64,000 nt of DNA from positions 62,001 to 126,000 of the forward strand of contig LVBB01000069.1 in assembly GCA_001603075.1 (NCBI GenBank), read 5' to 3'. This document shows positions 42,102-55,735 of the stretch, piece after piece (position 1 is the stretch's first letter; every line of letters begins with the position of its first letter). The notes under the pieces are model-generated. The model had not been told where the DNA came from. It made no database searches and was given only the letters and a program-made list of their open reading frames with translations. The position numbers and the translations under genes were made by a program. The stretch comes from Phycisphaerales bacterium Planc_01. GTDB lineage: Bacteria > Planctomycetota > Phycisphaerae > Sedimentisphaerales > Anaerobacaceae.

Positions 42102-42109
42102 GGCCTCGG

Positions 42110-42221
42110 TCGCTAGGGGTGACCGGTCCGGGGCCGGTCTGAGAGAAAACCCTCCGAACCTGATCAGGACAATCGCCCGACCGAGATGAACCGGGCGAAT
42201 ATGCCTGCGTAGGAAAGCGAT
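42110..42221 (+). ncRNA. TPP riboswitch (THI element)
   Basis: The segment holds the conserved thiamin pyrophosphate aptamer blocks in order: GGGGTG, CTGAGAG, ACCCTCCGAACCTGATC and TGCCTGCGTAGGAAA. Closing stem P1 is TCGCT (42110..42114) with AGCGA (42216..42220). It lies between a promoter and a terminator in front of thiC, so TPP should reduce thiC expression. Confidence 0.95.
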
Positions 42222-42250
42222 AGACAAAGGGCTATCACGAATGGGCGACG

Positions 42251-50259: not shown

Positions 50260-52971
50260 TTACGAATCCAGGGTTCGCGCCACCTTGACGATCTCATAAA
50301 ACTCCAACGTATCGTCGACTTTCAGGTCGTCGAATCCCGCCAGCTTGATGCCGCACTCGAATCCGGCCTTCACCTCGCGGACGTCGTCCTTGAAATGCTT
50401 GAGGGAATCGAGCGTCAGGTTGTCCCGAACCACGATATTGTTCCGAATCAACCGGGTCTTGGCGCTCTTGAGGACCGCCCCATTGCTGACGAAACAGCCG
50501 ATGACGGTCCCGATCCGAGAGACCTTGAACGTGGCTCTGACCACGGCGCGACCGAGAACCTTCTCCTGCTCTTCCGGTTCGAGCATGCCGACCATGGACT
50601 TGCGCAGATCTTCCGTGATACGGTAGATCACGTTGTACAGGCGGATGTCCACCCCTTCGGCTTCGGCGGCCTTGGCGGCGCGCTCGTCGGCGACGACATT
50701 GAAACCGATGATGATCGCATTGGACGCCTCGGCCAGCAGCACGTCGCCCTCGGTGATCCCGCCGGGCATGGCCTGGAGGATGTTGATGCGGATCTCGTCC
50801 ACGCTCAGTTCGGACAGATATTTCTTGAGCACGTCGACCGACCCCTGCACGTCGGCGCGAACGATCAGATTCAGATCCTTGACGTTCCCCGCCTCGATCT
50901 GACTGAAGAGGTTGTCCATCGTCACCTGGGTTCGCTCGGCCAGCGATTTCTCCCTCGCGCGGAGCCGGCCTTCTTCGGCGGCGTCCTTGGCGCGATTGAC
51001 GTCGTCGAGGCAGTAGAACCGGTCGCCGGCCTGGGGCACGCCGTTGAGACCACTGATCTCCACCGGCATGGAACTGGTGGCGGTCTTGATCTTCTTGCCG
51101 TAGCTGTTCTTCATCATCTTGACCCGGCCGTAGGTGTCACCGGCCAGGACAACGTCGCCCTTGTTGAGTTGGCCTTCCTTGACCAGCACGGTGGCCACCG
51201 GGCCCTGTTGCGGCGACATCTTGGCCTCGACCACCCACCCGGTGGCGGGTATGCCGTCGTCGGCCTTCAGGTCCATCAGTTCAGCCGTATAGTCCAGCGC
51301 CTCGAGCAGGTCTTCAATCCCCTGTCCCGTCGCGGCGCTGGTCTTGACCACTTCGGTCTGGCCGCCCCACTCGGCCGGCGTCAGCTCGTGCTCCGACAAC
51401 TGAGCATAGATGCGGTTGATGTCGCAGCCGGGCAGATCAATCTTGTTCAGCGCCACCACGATCGCCACGCCCGCCGCCTTGCTGTGCGCGATGGCCTCGA
51501 TCGTCTGCGGCATGACGCCGTCATCGGCCGCCACCACCAGCACCACGATGTCCGTCATGTTCGCCCCGCGGGCCCGCATGGCGGTGAACGCCTCGTGACC
51601 GGGCGTGTCCAGGAAGGTGACGGTCTTGTTGTTCCAGGTCACCTGCGAGGCGCCGATATGCTGTGTGATGCCGCCGGCTTCCCCGGCCGCCACATGCGTC
51701 GAGCGAATCTTGTCGAGCAGGCTCGTCTTGCCGTGATCGACGTGACCGAGCATGGCCACGACCACCGGACGTTTCTTAAGATTCAGACGCTCGCGCGACT
51801 CGAACTCTTTTCGAATACTTTCCTCCACCGAGCATCTGCGCTCGATCTCCAGTTCCGTCTCAAATTCGACGGCCACCAGTTCGGCTACGTCGTTGGCGAT
51901 CACCTGGTTGGCTGTCACCATCACTCCCTGCTGCATCAACCTGGCGATGATGTCGGCCGCCTTGACCGCCAACGCAGCGGAGAGATCCTTTACCGTGATC
52001 GGCTCGCTGACCATGGCCTTCCGCGGTCGGCCCGCCCCCCCGGCCTCCCGTTGCGACTTGGACGTGATCTTTCGAGACGGACGCAGCCGAAGGCCCTCGC
52101 CGCCGGCGGCGCTCAGACGGGCCTGCCGTTCCTCTATGTCTCTCTGACGCAACTTGCCACGGGCCTTGCCCTTCTTGGCGGCATCTTCTTCGGCCCCTTC
52201 TTTCCGGCGACCGTGCGTCCTCTCCTTGTGATGCTTGCCTCGTTTCTTGTCGGCGTCCGCCGATGAAACGACCGCCGGGGCCTTGTCCCTGCCCATCAGG
52301 GGCTCGGTGACTGCGCCATCGCGTCGCGGACGGGGGCGGCCCCGCGAACGAAAGCGATCCAGCGGTTCCGGGGCTTCGACCCGAACAACCTGCGGACCAC
52401 TGAGCTTGGCCGGCTTCGGCTTGCCGAGCATGGGCCCGGCGGGCAGCACCACAATCTCCTCTTTCTTCTCTTCGACCTTGGGCGGCGCGGGGGCTTCGGG
52501 CTGGGCCACTGCAGCGGCTGGCTCGACCGCCTCGACCACCTCGATCTCCGCCACCGAGGTCTGGATCTTCTCCTCGACCCCTGGCACCTCAGCAACCTCG
52601 GGGGCAACCAGGGTCTCCACCTGCTCCTCGACCGTCACCGTCTCCTCCTCCGTAGACGGCTCGGCCTCGGCCACTGCCGCTTCGACGCCGCCACTGTCGG
52701 GCCCTTCCTCGGACACCTGTGATGCGTCCACGACCCTGGTCCGCTGGGGCCTCTTGACCCGGACTTCCGACAAATCCACCCTCTCTGCCGTCTCAACCGT
52801 CGTAACGTTCTCCCCCTCACTGAACCACTCTCGAATGGTGGCGGCCAGACCGGCGGAGATCGCGGTCATATGGTTCTTGACGTCCAGACCTTCGTCCTGG
52901 CATTTCTTCACGATCGCCGAGCTCTTGACACCGAGATCACGAGCTAATATGTAGACTCTTGTAGCAGCCAA
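50260..52971 (-). CDS. infB: InfB, translation initiation factor IF-2
   Basis: The 903-residue GTPase begins with an IF2N-type module ([20 protein letters not shown]) and a long charged low-complexity region of alternating E, V and A, then K and R. The GTPase motifs are [12 protein letters not shown] near residue 410, [17 protein letters not shown] and NKID. Domains III and IV close the protein. IF-2 delivers initiator tRNA to the 30S subunit. The start is TTG, with GGAGG four bases upstream. It follows nusA by 17 bases. Confidence 0.97.
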
Positions 52972-52988
52972 GAAACCTCCACGTACAC

Positions 52989-54224
52989 CTATTCTTCCTG
53001 ATCCTTCTTCTGTGCCTCAAGACGACTGGTCTGCTCGGCCAACTCCTTGGCGGCCTGCTTGCGCTCGGATTCAACGGCCATCATCTTGGCCGCCTGGTCG
53101 GCGCCCTGAACCAGCCTTTCGGCGAAGCCGGGATCAAGGCCCAGCTCACCGACCAGCGGCTCGGAGCCCACATCATCAAGATCAAGAACAGATATGATAC
53201 CCAAGGCAATCAGCTTATCAACCAGGATATCGTCGGCGCCCTCGACCGTCTTGACGGCGGCCGCGAGCCGTTCGATGCCCAGGTTGTACTCATCGGGCGT
53301 AAGAATGTCGATGTCCCAGCCGCTGAGCCGGGCCGCCAGACGGACGTTCTGGCCGTGCTTGCCGATGGCCAGAGACAACTGATCCTCTTCCACCACCACC
53401 GTAGCGCGGCCCAATTCGAAGCACAAGGCGATCTCACTGACCTTGGCCGGCATAAGTGCATTGGCAACAAGAACTTGAGAGGAATCGTTCCATCGGACGA
53501 TGTCGATCTTCTCGCCGCCGAGCTCATCGACGATATTCTTGATGCGGCTGCCGCGGACACCTACGCAGGCCCCGACGGGGTCTACCTTGTCATCGTACGA
53601 AGTCACCGCCACCTTGCTGCGATAGCCCGCCTCCCGGGCCAGGGCTCGAATCTCGATGATGTTCTCGGCGATCTCCGGGACCTCCGACTCGAACAGACGC
53701 CGAATGAAGTCCGGGTGCGTTCGCGACAGAATGATCTTGACCTGACTGGCGGTCTCTTTCACGTCGAGAATCAGGCAGCGAATCCGCTCCCCCGGCCGAT
53801 GCGTCTGGCCCATGATCTGCTCGCCCTTTGGCATGAACCCTTCGGTCCAGTGGTCTAGATTGACGATGAGCGTTCCTCCCTCGTAACGAACGACTGCGCC
53901 GCTGATCAGTTGGCCCTTGCGCTGAACGAACTCGCTGAAGATGCTGTCGCGCTCGTCGGCTCGGATCTTCTGGATCATCACCTGCTTGGCGGTCTGCGCC
54001 GGAATCCGACCGAGCCGACGGATGTCGATCGGCTGCTGGTCCCGGAAGGCGACCACTTTGCCGCTCTCCCGGTCGATACGGACCACGATCTCGCTTTCCG
54101 GATCGCCGAAGTGCTTGCGAACCGCTGAGATCATCGCCTCTTCCAGATCAACGAAAATCGACTCCTTGTCGATGTTCTTGTCTCGGGCGATGTTGTCCAC
54201 GATCCTCAACAATTCCTGGTTCAT
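52989..54224 (-). CDS. nusA: NusA, transcription elongation/termination factor
   Basis: The 411-residue protein has the NusA N-terminal domain ([20 protein letters not shown]), an S1 domain ([20 protein letters not shown]) and two KH domains. The KH region includes [20 protein letters not shown] and later [20 protein letters not shown]. After one helix-hairpin-helix-like region (about residues 350-390) it ends in a charged tail, so the double AR repeats of the longer E. coli protein are missing. NusA modulates pausing and termination. It is the first gene of the reverse run and is preceded by an unusual hairpin leader. Confidence 0.96.
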
Positions 54225-54307
54225 AGTCTTTTCTCATCCAAATAGAAACAGCCTCCCGGTGCCGGCCCTGACGCACCGGAGGCGACTATCGCAATGCCTC
54301 GTTAGCC

Positions 54308-54326
54308 GCCGGTCCACTTGACCGGC
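54308..54326 (-). promoter_or_regulatory. nusA leader hairpin (proximal)
   Basis: GCCGGTC-N5-GACCGGC is a perfect seven-base-pair stem about 85 bases before the nusA ATG. Its GGTC/GACC core can also pair with the neighbouring hairpin at 54336..54353. Confidence 0.55.
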
Positions 54327-54335
54327 GAGAACAGC

Positions 54336-54353
54336 GGTCCCCAAAAAAGGACC
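54336..54353 (-). promoter_or_regulatory. nusA leader hairpin (middle)
   Basis: GGTCC and GGACC flank an eight-base loop of mostly A (plus strand). On the minus strand it begins at the end of the terminator T tract and could pair alternatively with the proximal hairpin. Confidence 0.45.
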
Positions 54354-54387
54354 AAAAAAAAGTGGAAACTCTAACCAGTTTCCACTT
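54354..54387 (-). terminator. Strong intrinsic terminator upstream of nusA
   Basis: On the minus strand AAGTGGAAACT-N6-AGTTTCCACTT is a perfect 11-base-pair stem, immediately followed by at least six further T residues. It points toward nusA and lies 130 bases before its ATG. No coding gene precedes it on this strand, so it is either a leader attenuator or the end of a small RNA. Confidence 0.85.
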
Positions 54388-54869
54388 CAAACACACCCAT
54401 GCCAACCGAGGTTGTCACCTGCGTTTCGCCTACATCAGTCGCCTCCGACAGCAGCTCGGCCCGGCTTGGGGCCGGGTCCGCCGAACCTCACCATCAACCT
54501 CGCTGGCGCTACGATACTGAAGCAGAAACATCAAATCTACAGCCGCCATCGGCGCGAACGCGCAGGCACAATTTGCGCATCTACGCCGCTGCACTGTACA
54601 TACGTCCTGTCAACACCATTGCCTACACCTCACACAGCCTTGCTGGCAGCTATTTATTCCACCTTCGAAATCTTAATAGTAATCGGCCTCGGATTGGGGG
54701 GCAACAACTTTTTTTGGGGATTTTGGCCTTTTTCGGCGTCCCGCGAGGTCCGGGAACATCGTTGGGTTCGACGATTGCCCGGTCGGAGCAGCCGCCGAGG
54801 CCGGCGTGGCTCGCAGGCCCAGGGTCGGTATGCGCGCTGGCGGCGTTGCCGGTGCAACGCAGTTGCCGC
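54388..54869 (-). other. Gene-free region upstream of nusA and dapB
   Basis: Only weak, unrecognisable short ORFs occur on both strands. The minus strand contains a GC-rich inverted repeat (CCCGGC-N5-GCCGGG near 54460..54476). Since a strong terminator ends this region on the minus strand, some minus-strand transcript probably starts here. I found no convincing promoter and no match to tmRNA, RNase P RNA, SRP RNA or 6S RNA. Confidence 0.4.
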
Positions 54870-54937: not shown

Positions 54938-55735
54938 ATGAAACGCAAATTGGCGGTTGTAGGTGCGGCCGGGCGCATGGGCGGGCGGATCATCGCCATG
55001 GCGGTCGAATCAGGGAAGTTCACGATCGTCGGGGCTGCCGACGCCCAAGGCCATCCCGATCTGGGCAAGGACGCAGGACTGCTGGCGGGAGTCGGCCCCC
55101 TGAACGTACCCCTGAGCGATTCTTGTCCTGCCGATCCCGATGTCGTGATCGATTTCTCGCTCCCGGAGGCGGCCGGCAACACGCTGCGGCACTGTATGAA
55201 GAACAAGATTCCGCTGGTCATGGGAACGACCGGCCTGGGTCCCGAGCAGCAGGCCGTTGCCGCAGAAGCGGCCAAAGGCATTCCTCTGATCTATGGAACC
55301 AACATGAGTGTCGGGATGAACGTCCTGTTTGCCCTGGTGGGCAAGGCGGCGGCCATGCTGGGACCGGACTACGACATCGAGATCGTCGAACAGCATCACC
55401 GATTTAAGAAGGACGCCCCCAGCGGCAGCGCCCTGACACTGGCGGAACAGGTGTGCCAGGCCACCGGACGCGACTATCCCGACTGCCTTACGCACGGCCG
55501 CAGCGGCAAGGACGCCCGGAGGCAGCCCGGCACGATCGGTATGCACGCCGTCCGAGCCGGCGACATCGTGGGCATCCACTCGGTGATCTGCAGCACGTTG
55601 GGCGAGACCGTCACGCTCAACCATACAGCGCACAGCCGGGACACTTTCGTCCAAGGGGCACTGCGCGCGGCCGAATGGCTCATTGATAAGGATCCCGGCC
55701 TCTACTCCATGGCCGACGTGCTGGGCCTCAAGTAG
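54938..55735 (+). CDS. dapB: DapB, 4-hydroxy-tetrahydrodipicolinate reductase
   Basis: The 265-residue enzyme of lysine and diaminopimelate synthesis starts KLAVVGAAGRMGGRII with the NAD(P) loop. It has VVIDFSLPEA, then MGTTGL and TNMSVGMNVLF. The catalytic and substrate-binding segment is EQHHRFKKDAPSGSAL, and HSVICSTLGETVTLNHTAHS follows. It supplies meso-diaminopimelate for peptidoglycan, consistent with murJ, rodA and glmS in the window. AGGAAAGG lies upstream of the ATG. It stands alone, with its own promoter and no other dap gene adjacent. Confidence 0.97.
   Translation: MKRKLAVVGAAGRMGGRIIAMAVESGKFTIVGAADAQGHPDLGKDAGLLAGVGPLNVPLSDSCPADPDVVIDFSLPEAAGNTLRHCMKNKIPLVMGTTGLGPEQQAVAAEAAKGIPLIYGTNMSVGMNVLFALVGKAAAMLGPDYDIEIVEQHHRFKKDAPSGSALTLAEQVCQATGRDYPDCLTHGRSGKDARRQPGTIGMHAVRAGDIVGIHSVICSTLGETVTLNHTAHSRDTFVQGALRAAEWLIDKDPGLYSMADVLGLK

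Follow-up and report, generated by a model that had tools for sequence, protein, structure and literature searches.

A putative ribosome-sensing transcription attenuator with a start-stop minigene in the nusA-infB leader of Sedimentisphaerales

Terminators in the leaders of operons containing nusA and infB have been described before, and the available part of the original report on the rimP-leader (Naville and Gautheret 2010, PMC2965389) presents a short conserved terminator 4-130 nt before the first gene of the nusA/infB operon. For most species it reports neither a conserved element of greater length nor a recognisable antiterminator, and for some Gammaproteobacteria a tandem terminator having an antiterminator. 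The leader described here likewise places a terminator ahead of an operon with nusA and infB but differs, as far as that part of the report goes, in that nusA is the first gene, in that conservation extends to a leader ORF (uORF1), a minigene and an antiterminator, and in that the terminator stem of the window (the whole 64,000-nt stretch of DNA that was analysed), GAAGTGGAAACT/AGTTTCCACTTT, lacks the GGGc(...)gCCC motif (PMC2965389). In Bacillus subtilis, intrinsic termination in the nusA leader also controls entry into the operon, and NusA is the signal according to the available excerpt (PMC12288461), whereas here the signal would be the ribosome. In leader-peptide and uORF attenuators, including Salmonella mgtCBR as covered by the accessible passages (PMC3641672), translation of a short ORF is thought to choose between mutually exclusive hairpins, as proposed below; in contrast to these, the present leader lacks a codon run for any single amino acid, and the second ORF of the window's family has no sense codon past its ATG. 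Start-stop sites are reported from Ribo-seq of Campylobacter jejuni, with Escherichia coli cited there (PMC11955535, in part), and in Arabidopsis NIP5;1 ribosome stalling at AUGUAA regulates a plant mRNA (PMC11915504, in part). These share with our minigenes a stop codon that comes immediately after the start or a codon or two later; they are profiling sites or belong to eukaryotic mRNA decay in the portions of the two papers at hand, whereas the minigenes lie inside a putative bacterial terminator/antiterminator switch conserved across families. Finally, the axe-txe minigene is a bacterial minigene said to affect expression of a neighbouring gene, but the available section concerns toxin translation and describes no transcription switch (PMC8708949). 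Our literature search of open-licence PubMed Central papers found no report of a planctomycete nusA leader or of a start-stop attenuator.

The nusA-infB leader and its terminator

The leader runs on the minus strand from about 54670 to 54225, before nusA-infB, with the terminator forming its 3' end (Table 1). A reading made from the sequence alone had marked 54308-54387 as a nusA attenuator; hairpins are indeed found there, but the interval omits about 300 nt of conserved leader. Its remark that no gene precedes them holds for genes of ordinary size on the minus strand, dapB being divergent from the leader at 54938, but not for the two tiny ORFs that lie upstream.

Table 1. Features of the nusA-infB leader and the genes behind it, in window coordinates
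Feature	Position	Strand	Details
Candidate promoter	54676..54704	-	-35 TTGCCC 54704-54699; 17-nt spacer; -10 TACTAT 54681-54676
uORF1, putative	54581..54631	-	MVLTGRMYSAAA; SD GAGGTG 54631-54626; ORF 54619-54581
Antiterminator strand, predicted	54519..54529	-	GUUUCUGCUUC; 11 pairs (two wobble) with terminator 5' arm
Helix Pc, 5' strand	54495..54507	-	GCCAGCGAGGUUG; pairs with 54414-54401 in predicted folds
Minigene, putative	54430..54446	-	SD GGAGG 54446-54442; start-stop ATG TAG 54435-54430
Helix Pc, 3' strand	54401..54414	-	CAACCUCGGUUGGC; predicted folds
Intrinsic terminator	54354..54388	-	5' arm 54388-54377; loop 54376-54371; 3' arm 54370-54359; eight T 54361-54354
First downstream hairpin	54336..54353	-	GGTCC 54353-54349; GGACC 54340-54336; fold
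Second downstream hairpin	54308..54326	-	GCCGGTC/GACCGGC; fold
Third inverted repeat	54251..54283	-	GCCTCCGGTGC / GCACCGGGAGGC; read from sequence
nusA, first gene past leader	52989..54224	-	Pfam NusA_N + KH_5
infB (IF2), gene after nusA	50260..52971	-	Pfam IF-2, IF2_N and others; start is the TTG of a mechanical ORF call and may be wrong

A terminator with a T tract facing nusA is present, as the earlier reading had it; its stem has 12 pairs and its tract eight T. The segment 54390-54308 folds into exactly three hairpins at -40.2 kcal/mol, against -22.3 +/- 3.2 in 200 shuffles (z -5.6). A simple terminator scan of an 8-kb region gave six sites with 5.6 expected, so such matches alone mean little; the window terminator stands out by a stem of 12 pairs, where the other five have 5-6, and is conserved in relatives. 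The GGTCC/GGACC elements that the two downstream hairpins were said to share are there, but the predicted fold closes each hairpin on itself rather than pairing them alternatively. As a switch these hairpins were rejected: they are transcribed past the termination point, by eye they were recognised in the five leaders from the genus (L001-L005) but in none of the other 11 aligned, and the conserved alternative pairing lies upstream. A strong inverted repeat, the third after these two hairpins, is found between them and nusA.

Relatives were compared in a set of 132 nusA upstreams from one order (Sedimentisphaerales), which was anchored on nusA and is thus unbiased towards the leader sequence. 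nusA was matched in 138 of 148 genomes, seven were dropped with the N terminus missing or too little upstream sequence, and one extra genome was added to the remaining 131; some upstreams are shorter than 700 nt. A terminator lies within 260 nt of the nusA ATG in 124 of the 132, against a shuffled mean of 4.2 (maximum 8 in 10 shuffles), a count, like those below, of sequences and not of evolutionary events. The terminator stem itself varies by family, being AAAAGTGGTAACC/GGTTTCCACTTTT in L106 (f7) and GAAAGTGGGTT/GGCCCACTTTT in L145 (f5). In an independent search with the leader DNA, 16 of 41 genomes matched, including its own genome, where it is single copy, and the match adjoins nusA in all 16 loci.

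Between the start of the T tract and the nusA ATG there are 23-225 nt (median 38.5, n=124). In 68 of the 124 this gap is no more than 45 nt, a room so small that nusA is most simply reached by readthrough. Among the 107 upstreams having both terminator and minigene, none carries a promoter-like site matching at least 9 of 12 consensus bases between terminator and ATG, and four reach 8; 85 of the 107 have a site of at least 9/12 in the region 140-330 nt ahead of the minigene, compared with 26% of mononucleotide shuffles. The candidate promoter of the window scores 8/12 and is weak by itself; its relatives are promoter-like (by eye) at the same position, and RNA polymerase would start at about 54669. 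With a terminator ahead of nusA in most relatives and no such promoter-like site behind it, the earlier proposal of a nusA attenuator is supported.

Two short ORFs and an alternative pairing

One element of the leader is a minigene, defined by rule as a Shine-Dalgarno (SD) sequence with an ORF of 0-4 sense codons. It precedes the terminator in 112 of the 132 upstreams, against a shuffled mean of 5.3 (maximum 12 in 200 shuffles), and in 78 of the 132 it is a start-stop, that is, an ATG directly followed by a stop (1.1 in shuffles, maximum 5). In the window's family, SD and ATG-stop are found in 66 of 69 members, the stop being TAG in 51, TAA in 11 and TGA in four, such that the identity of the stop shifts while start and stop are retained. 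The three exceptions are L057, whose minigene has one sense codon, L085, whose SD falls short of the rule, and L136, which contains an N. Other families have minigenes of 1-3 sense codons, for example MAD, MAEG, MKKG, MV and MGN. By its conserved ribosome-binding site, start and immediate stop, the minigene of the window qualifies as a start-stop ORF, presumably a translated one. In L105, L113, L140 and L145, which belong to other families, the minigene start codon lies inside a small hairpin of its own, which may control access to the minigene.

Further upstream, uORF1 reads ATG GTG TTG ACA GGA CGT ATG TAC AGT GCA GCG GCG TAG in the window and is presumably translated. In relatives it has 10-14 codons, and a core G-x-x-[SN]-[RS]-[AV] recurs in several families. 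A narrow peptide motif with ATG is matched in 67 of the 132 upstreams, against 4.4 (maximum 7) in 20 mononucleotide shuffles; the window's uORF1 fails this motif and was recognised by eye, as were versions, uncounted, in many other upstreams that fail it. A run of codons for one metabolically linked amino acid is absent from MVLTGRMYSAAA and its relatives, which does not fit an amino-acid leader-peptide attenuator.

The strand GUUUCUGCUUC, upstream of the minigene, is predicted to pair with the terminator 5' arm, and several comparisons bear on this pairing. When folds were computed without the terminator 3' arm, at least 9 nt of the 5' arm plus loop paired upstream of the minigene in 86 of the 107, against 26% of shuffles, and fewer than six arm nucleotides were paired in 14 of the 107. 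The best antiterminator duplexes have a mean energy of -13.5 kcal/mol against -10.7 kcal/mol in shuffles, although taken singly only 50 of 124 exceed the 95% shuffle level. In an alignment of 17 hand-picked members of the window's family (A1), each confirmed to be letter-exact, whose best conserved columns are the SD, the ATG-stop and the switch strands, 186 of 187 cells (99.5%) of the 11-bp antiterminator helix are paired, and in each of the seven pairs that vary just one partner changes; in helix Pc 77.8% of the cells are paired and six of 14 pairs show a double change. Over the whole structure 87.7% of cells are paired in these 17, against 85.5% in letter shuffles, none of 500 of which reach that value, and 39-56% when the structure is slid. 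Double changes occur in seven pairs against 4.1 in controls, a number reached by 35 of 500 shuffles, and slid versions give up to eight; they are thus not clearly above controls and are weak evidence for pairing.

In other alignments, RNAalifold predicts the antiterminator helix unaided in families f1 and f2, and only five pairs, CUUCAGG with CCUGAA, in f7. Between L107 and L114 (f2), strand and arm are altered together, GAGUG/CGCUC against GAACG/CGUUC (by eye). The window segment folds with the antiterminator helix at -65.3 kcal/mol (z -2.5), with 3 of 200 shuffles as good. Taken together, prediction and comparison point to an exclusive antiterminator that would use the terminator 5' arm.

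Proposed mechanism and competing explanations

We propose that the leader attenuates transcription of nusA-infB in response to ribosomes, a reading to which we assign a probability of roughly 0.6. Sequence comparison supports the terminator, the predicted antiterminator pairing, both putative ORFs and the linkage to nusA; which way the switch turns, IF2 as its signal and a part for NusA, if any, are what we infer. In the proposed model, RNA polymerase would pass in turn the leader ORF, the antiterminator strand, the ribosome-binding site with the start-stop minigene, and the terminator. If the antiterminator strand pairs with the terminator 5' arm, enclosing helix Pc and leaving the minigene in the loop, the terminator would be excluded and nusA-infB read; if the terminator forms instead, transcription would end before nusA. 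Most likely, a ribosome initiating on the minigene, its P site occupied by the start codon and its A site by the stop codon, would open Pc and favour the terminator. Ample capacity for initiation would then lower expression of the operon, and this capacity depends on IF2, which infB encodes. The leader ORF probably brings in the ribosome on the minigene or sets its timing, or is a second sensor.

Two folding results constrain this model. The full leader of the window folds preferentially with the terminator (-69.8 kcal/mol), and an antiterminator could then act only kinetically, by being completed first. Masking a ribosome footprint on the minigene did not weaken the antiterminator in nearest-neighbour folds (84 against 85 of 107); sterics, not pairing energy, would therefore have to act, and this counts against the proposed direction.

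A broader proposal, which we hold only tentatively and with more doubt than belief, is that such leaders form a phylum-deep attenuator class, in which a start-stop minigene, and not a peptide or codon run, senses the capacity for initiation and release (IF2, initiator tRNA and release factors), reports it to RNA polymerase and sets nusA and infB, coupling the two machineries. If true, the operon of a central transcription factor and IF2 would be controlled by translation initiation via the smallest possible ORF, start-stop ORFs would gain a conserved and testable bacterial role, and a way of joining feedback on IF2 with that on NusA would be suggested. The nusA-operon leader terminator, which in most bacteria is described as a short element, would have been elaborated into a complex switch in one phylum.

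Among the competing explanations, feedback by NusA alone, in which abundant NusA would stimulate the terminator while ORFs and antiterminator merely tune it, fares best, and we consider it unlikely. NusA of B. subtilis is autoregulated via NusA-stimulated termination in its leader, according to the excerpt available (PMC12288461), and NusA is also proposed as the regulator in the accessible part of the rimP-leader paper (PMC2965389); by this analogy autoregulation by readthrough, as the sequence-only reading suggested, is plausible. Elsewhere in the phylum, moreover, where 40 of the better among 117 matches were taken, a terminator within 260 nt of nusA is found in 24 of the 40 upstreams (0.6 in shuffles) but a minigene in only seven (0.7 in shuffles). 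Such feedback nevertheless leaves the conserved start-stop, leader ORF and antiterminator unexplained.

Alternatively, uORF1 could itself be the sensor, through an arrest peptide or a codon-specific stall, with the minigene as an accessory that, for example, recycles or clears ribosomes. The peptide core that recurs in several families would fit such a role, and tandem short ORFs within one attenuated leader are known from Salmonella mgtCBR (PMC3641672, available in part), but the uORF1 frame is broken (by eye) in L014, L074 and L076, where the minigene is intact, and in the window about 50 nt separate its stop from the antiterminator strand; we regard this explanation as quite improbable.

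There is very little to recommend a ligand-binding riboswitch. The leader is long and conserved, with terminator and antiterminator, as such an RNA would be, but Rfam gave nothing credible in it at gathering scores or at E up to 10 and no match in 20 related loci at gathering scores, and the best conserved columns of alignment A1 are those of the SD, the ATG-stop and the switch strands. In eight short-leader loci searched at E up to 5, there were eight matches, all below the cut-off, six of which carry miRNA names and fall on a single stretch of L243. Rfam contains a rimP-leader model, and no such family was among the matches for the leader, for the 20 loci (gathering scores) or for the eight loci (E up to 5). 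tmRNA, RNase P RNA and 6S RNA were rejected as identities of the leader, each being found above cut-off elsewhere in its own genome. That the leader is a separate small-RNA gene ending in its terminator, with nusA transcribed from another promoter, is scarcely tenable: a long leader with a strong terminator and a whole-leader fold of z -5.0 does resemble an sRNA gene, and a few members with 100-225 nt between T tract and ATG may have a promoter there, but all homologues from the DNA search adjoin nusA, and the distance from T tract to ATG is 45 nt or less in 68 of 124, with no promoter-like site of 9/12 there in any of the 107.

Wider occurrence and variation

Among the 40 upstreams from elsewhere in the phylum, five start-stops are found, all in one family (f31), and loci from its order (G170, of another class) and from a further order of the same class as the window (G150) were examined in 30 of 41 and 30 of 31 genomes. 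In the first, a start-stop with SD is present in 21 of 30, against 0.5 (maximum 3); in the second, minigenes of 0-1 sense codon are present in 16 of 30, against 0.6 (maximum 4), and start-stops in 0 of 30. Four loci of another order of the class (L290, L293, L300 and L306) have a leader ORF encoding MHRWEEPSAW or close variants (by eye), followed by the minigene ATG ACC TGA and then the terminator, before nusA. Other members of the phylum have terminator stems of the GTGGG/CCCAC type.

Many members of the window's family, among them L013, L050, L053, L054, L066 and L070-L072, have additional sequence between helix Pc and the terminator, which varies and is often an inverted repeat. In a few f5 members (L138, L143, L147 and L150) a longer stretch, of 105-194 nt, separates the terminator from the ATG, and a second nusA promoter may lie within it.

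When 84,980 genomes were scanned for one form of the terminator, 56 stretches were returned, of which 33 have nusA 26-307 nt past the T tract, while for the other 23 no nusA lies within the fetched piece (L170 being a short contig piece). The 33 include five from Methylacidiphilaceae (L153, L161, L163, L180 and L200), in which a near-identical terminator stem lies 28-33 nt before nusA and NusA is 34-36% identical; there the terminator follows close behind a TTGACC promoter-like site with no long leader (by eye), and the likeness may be shared or convergent. Elsewhere in the window, a TPP riboswitch (Rfam RF00059) is found at 42105-42232 on the plus strand, scoring barely above the gathering score.
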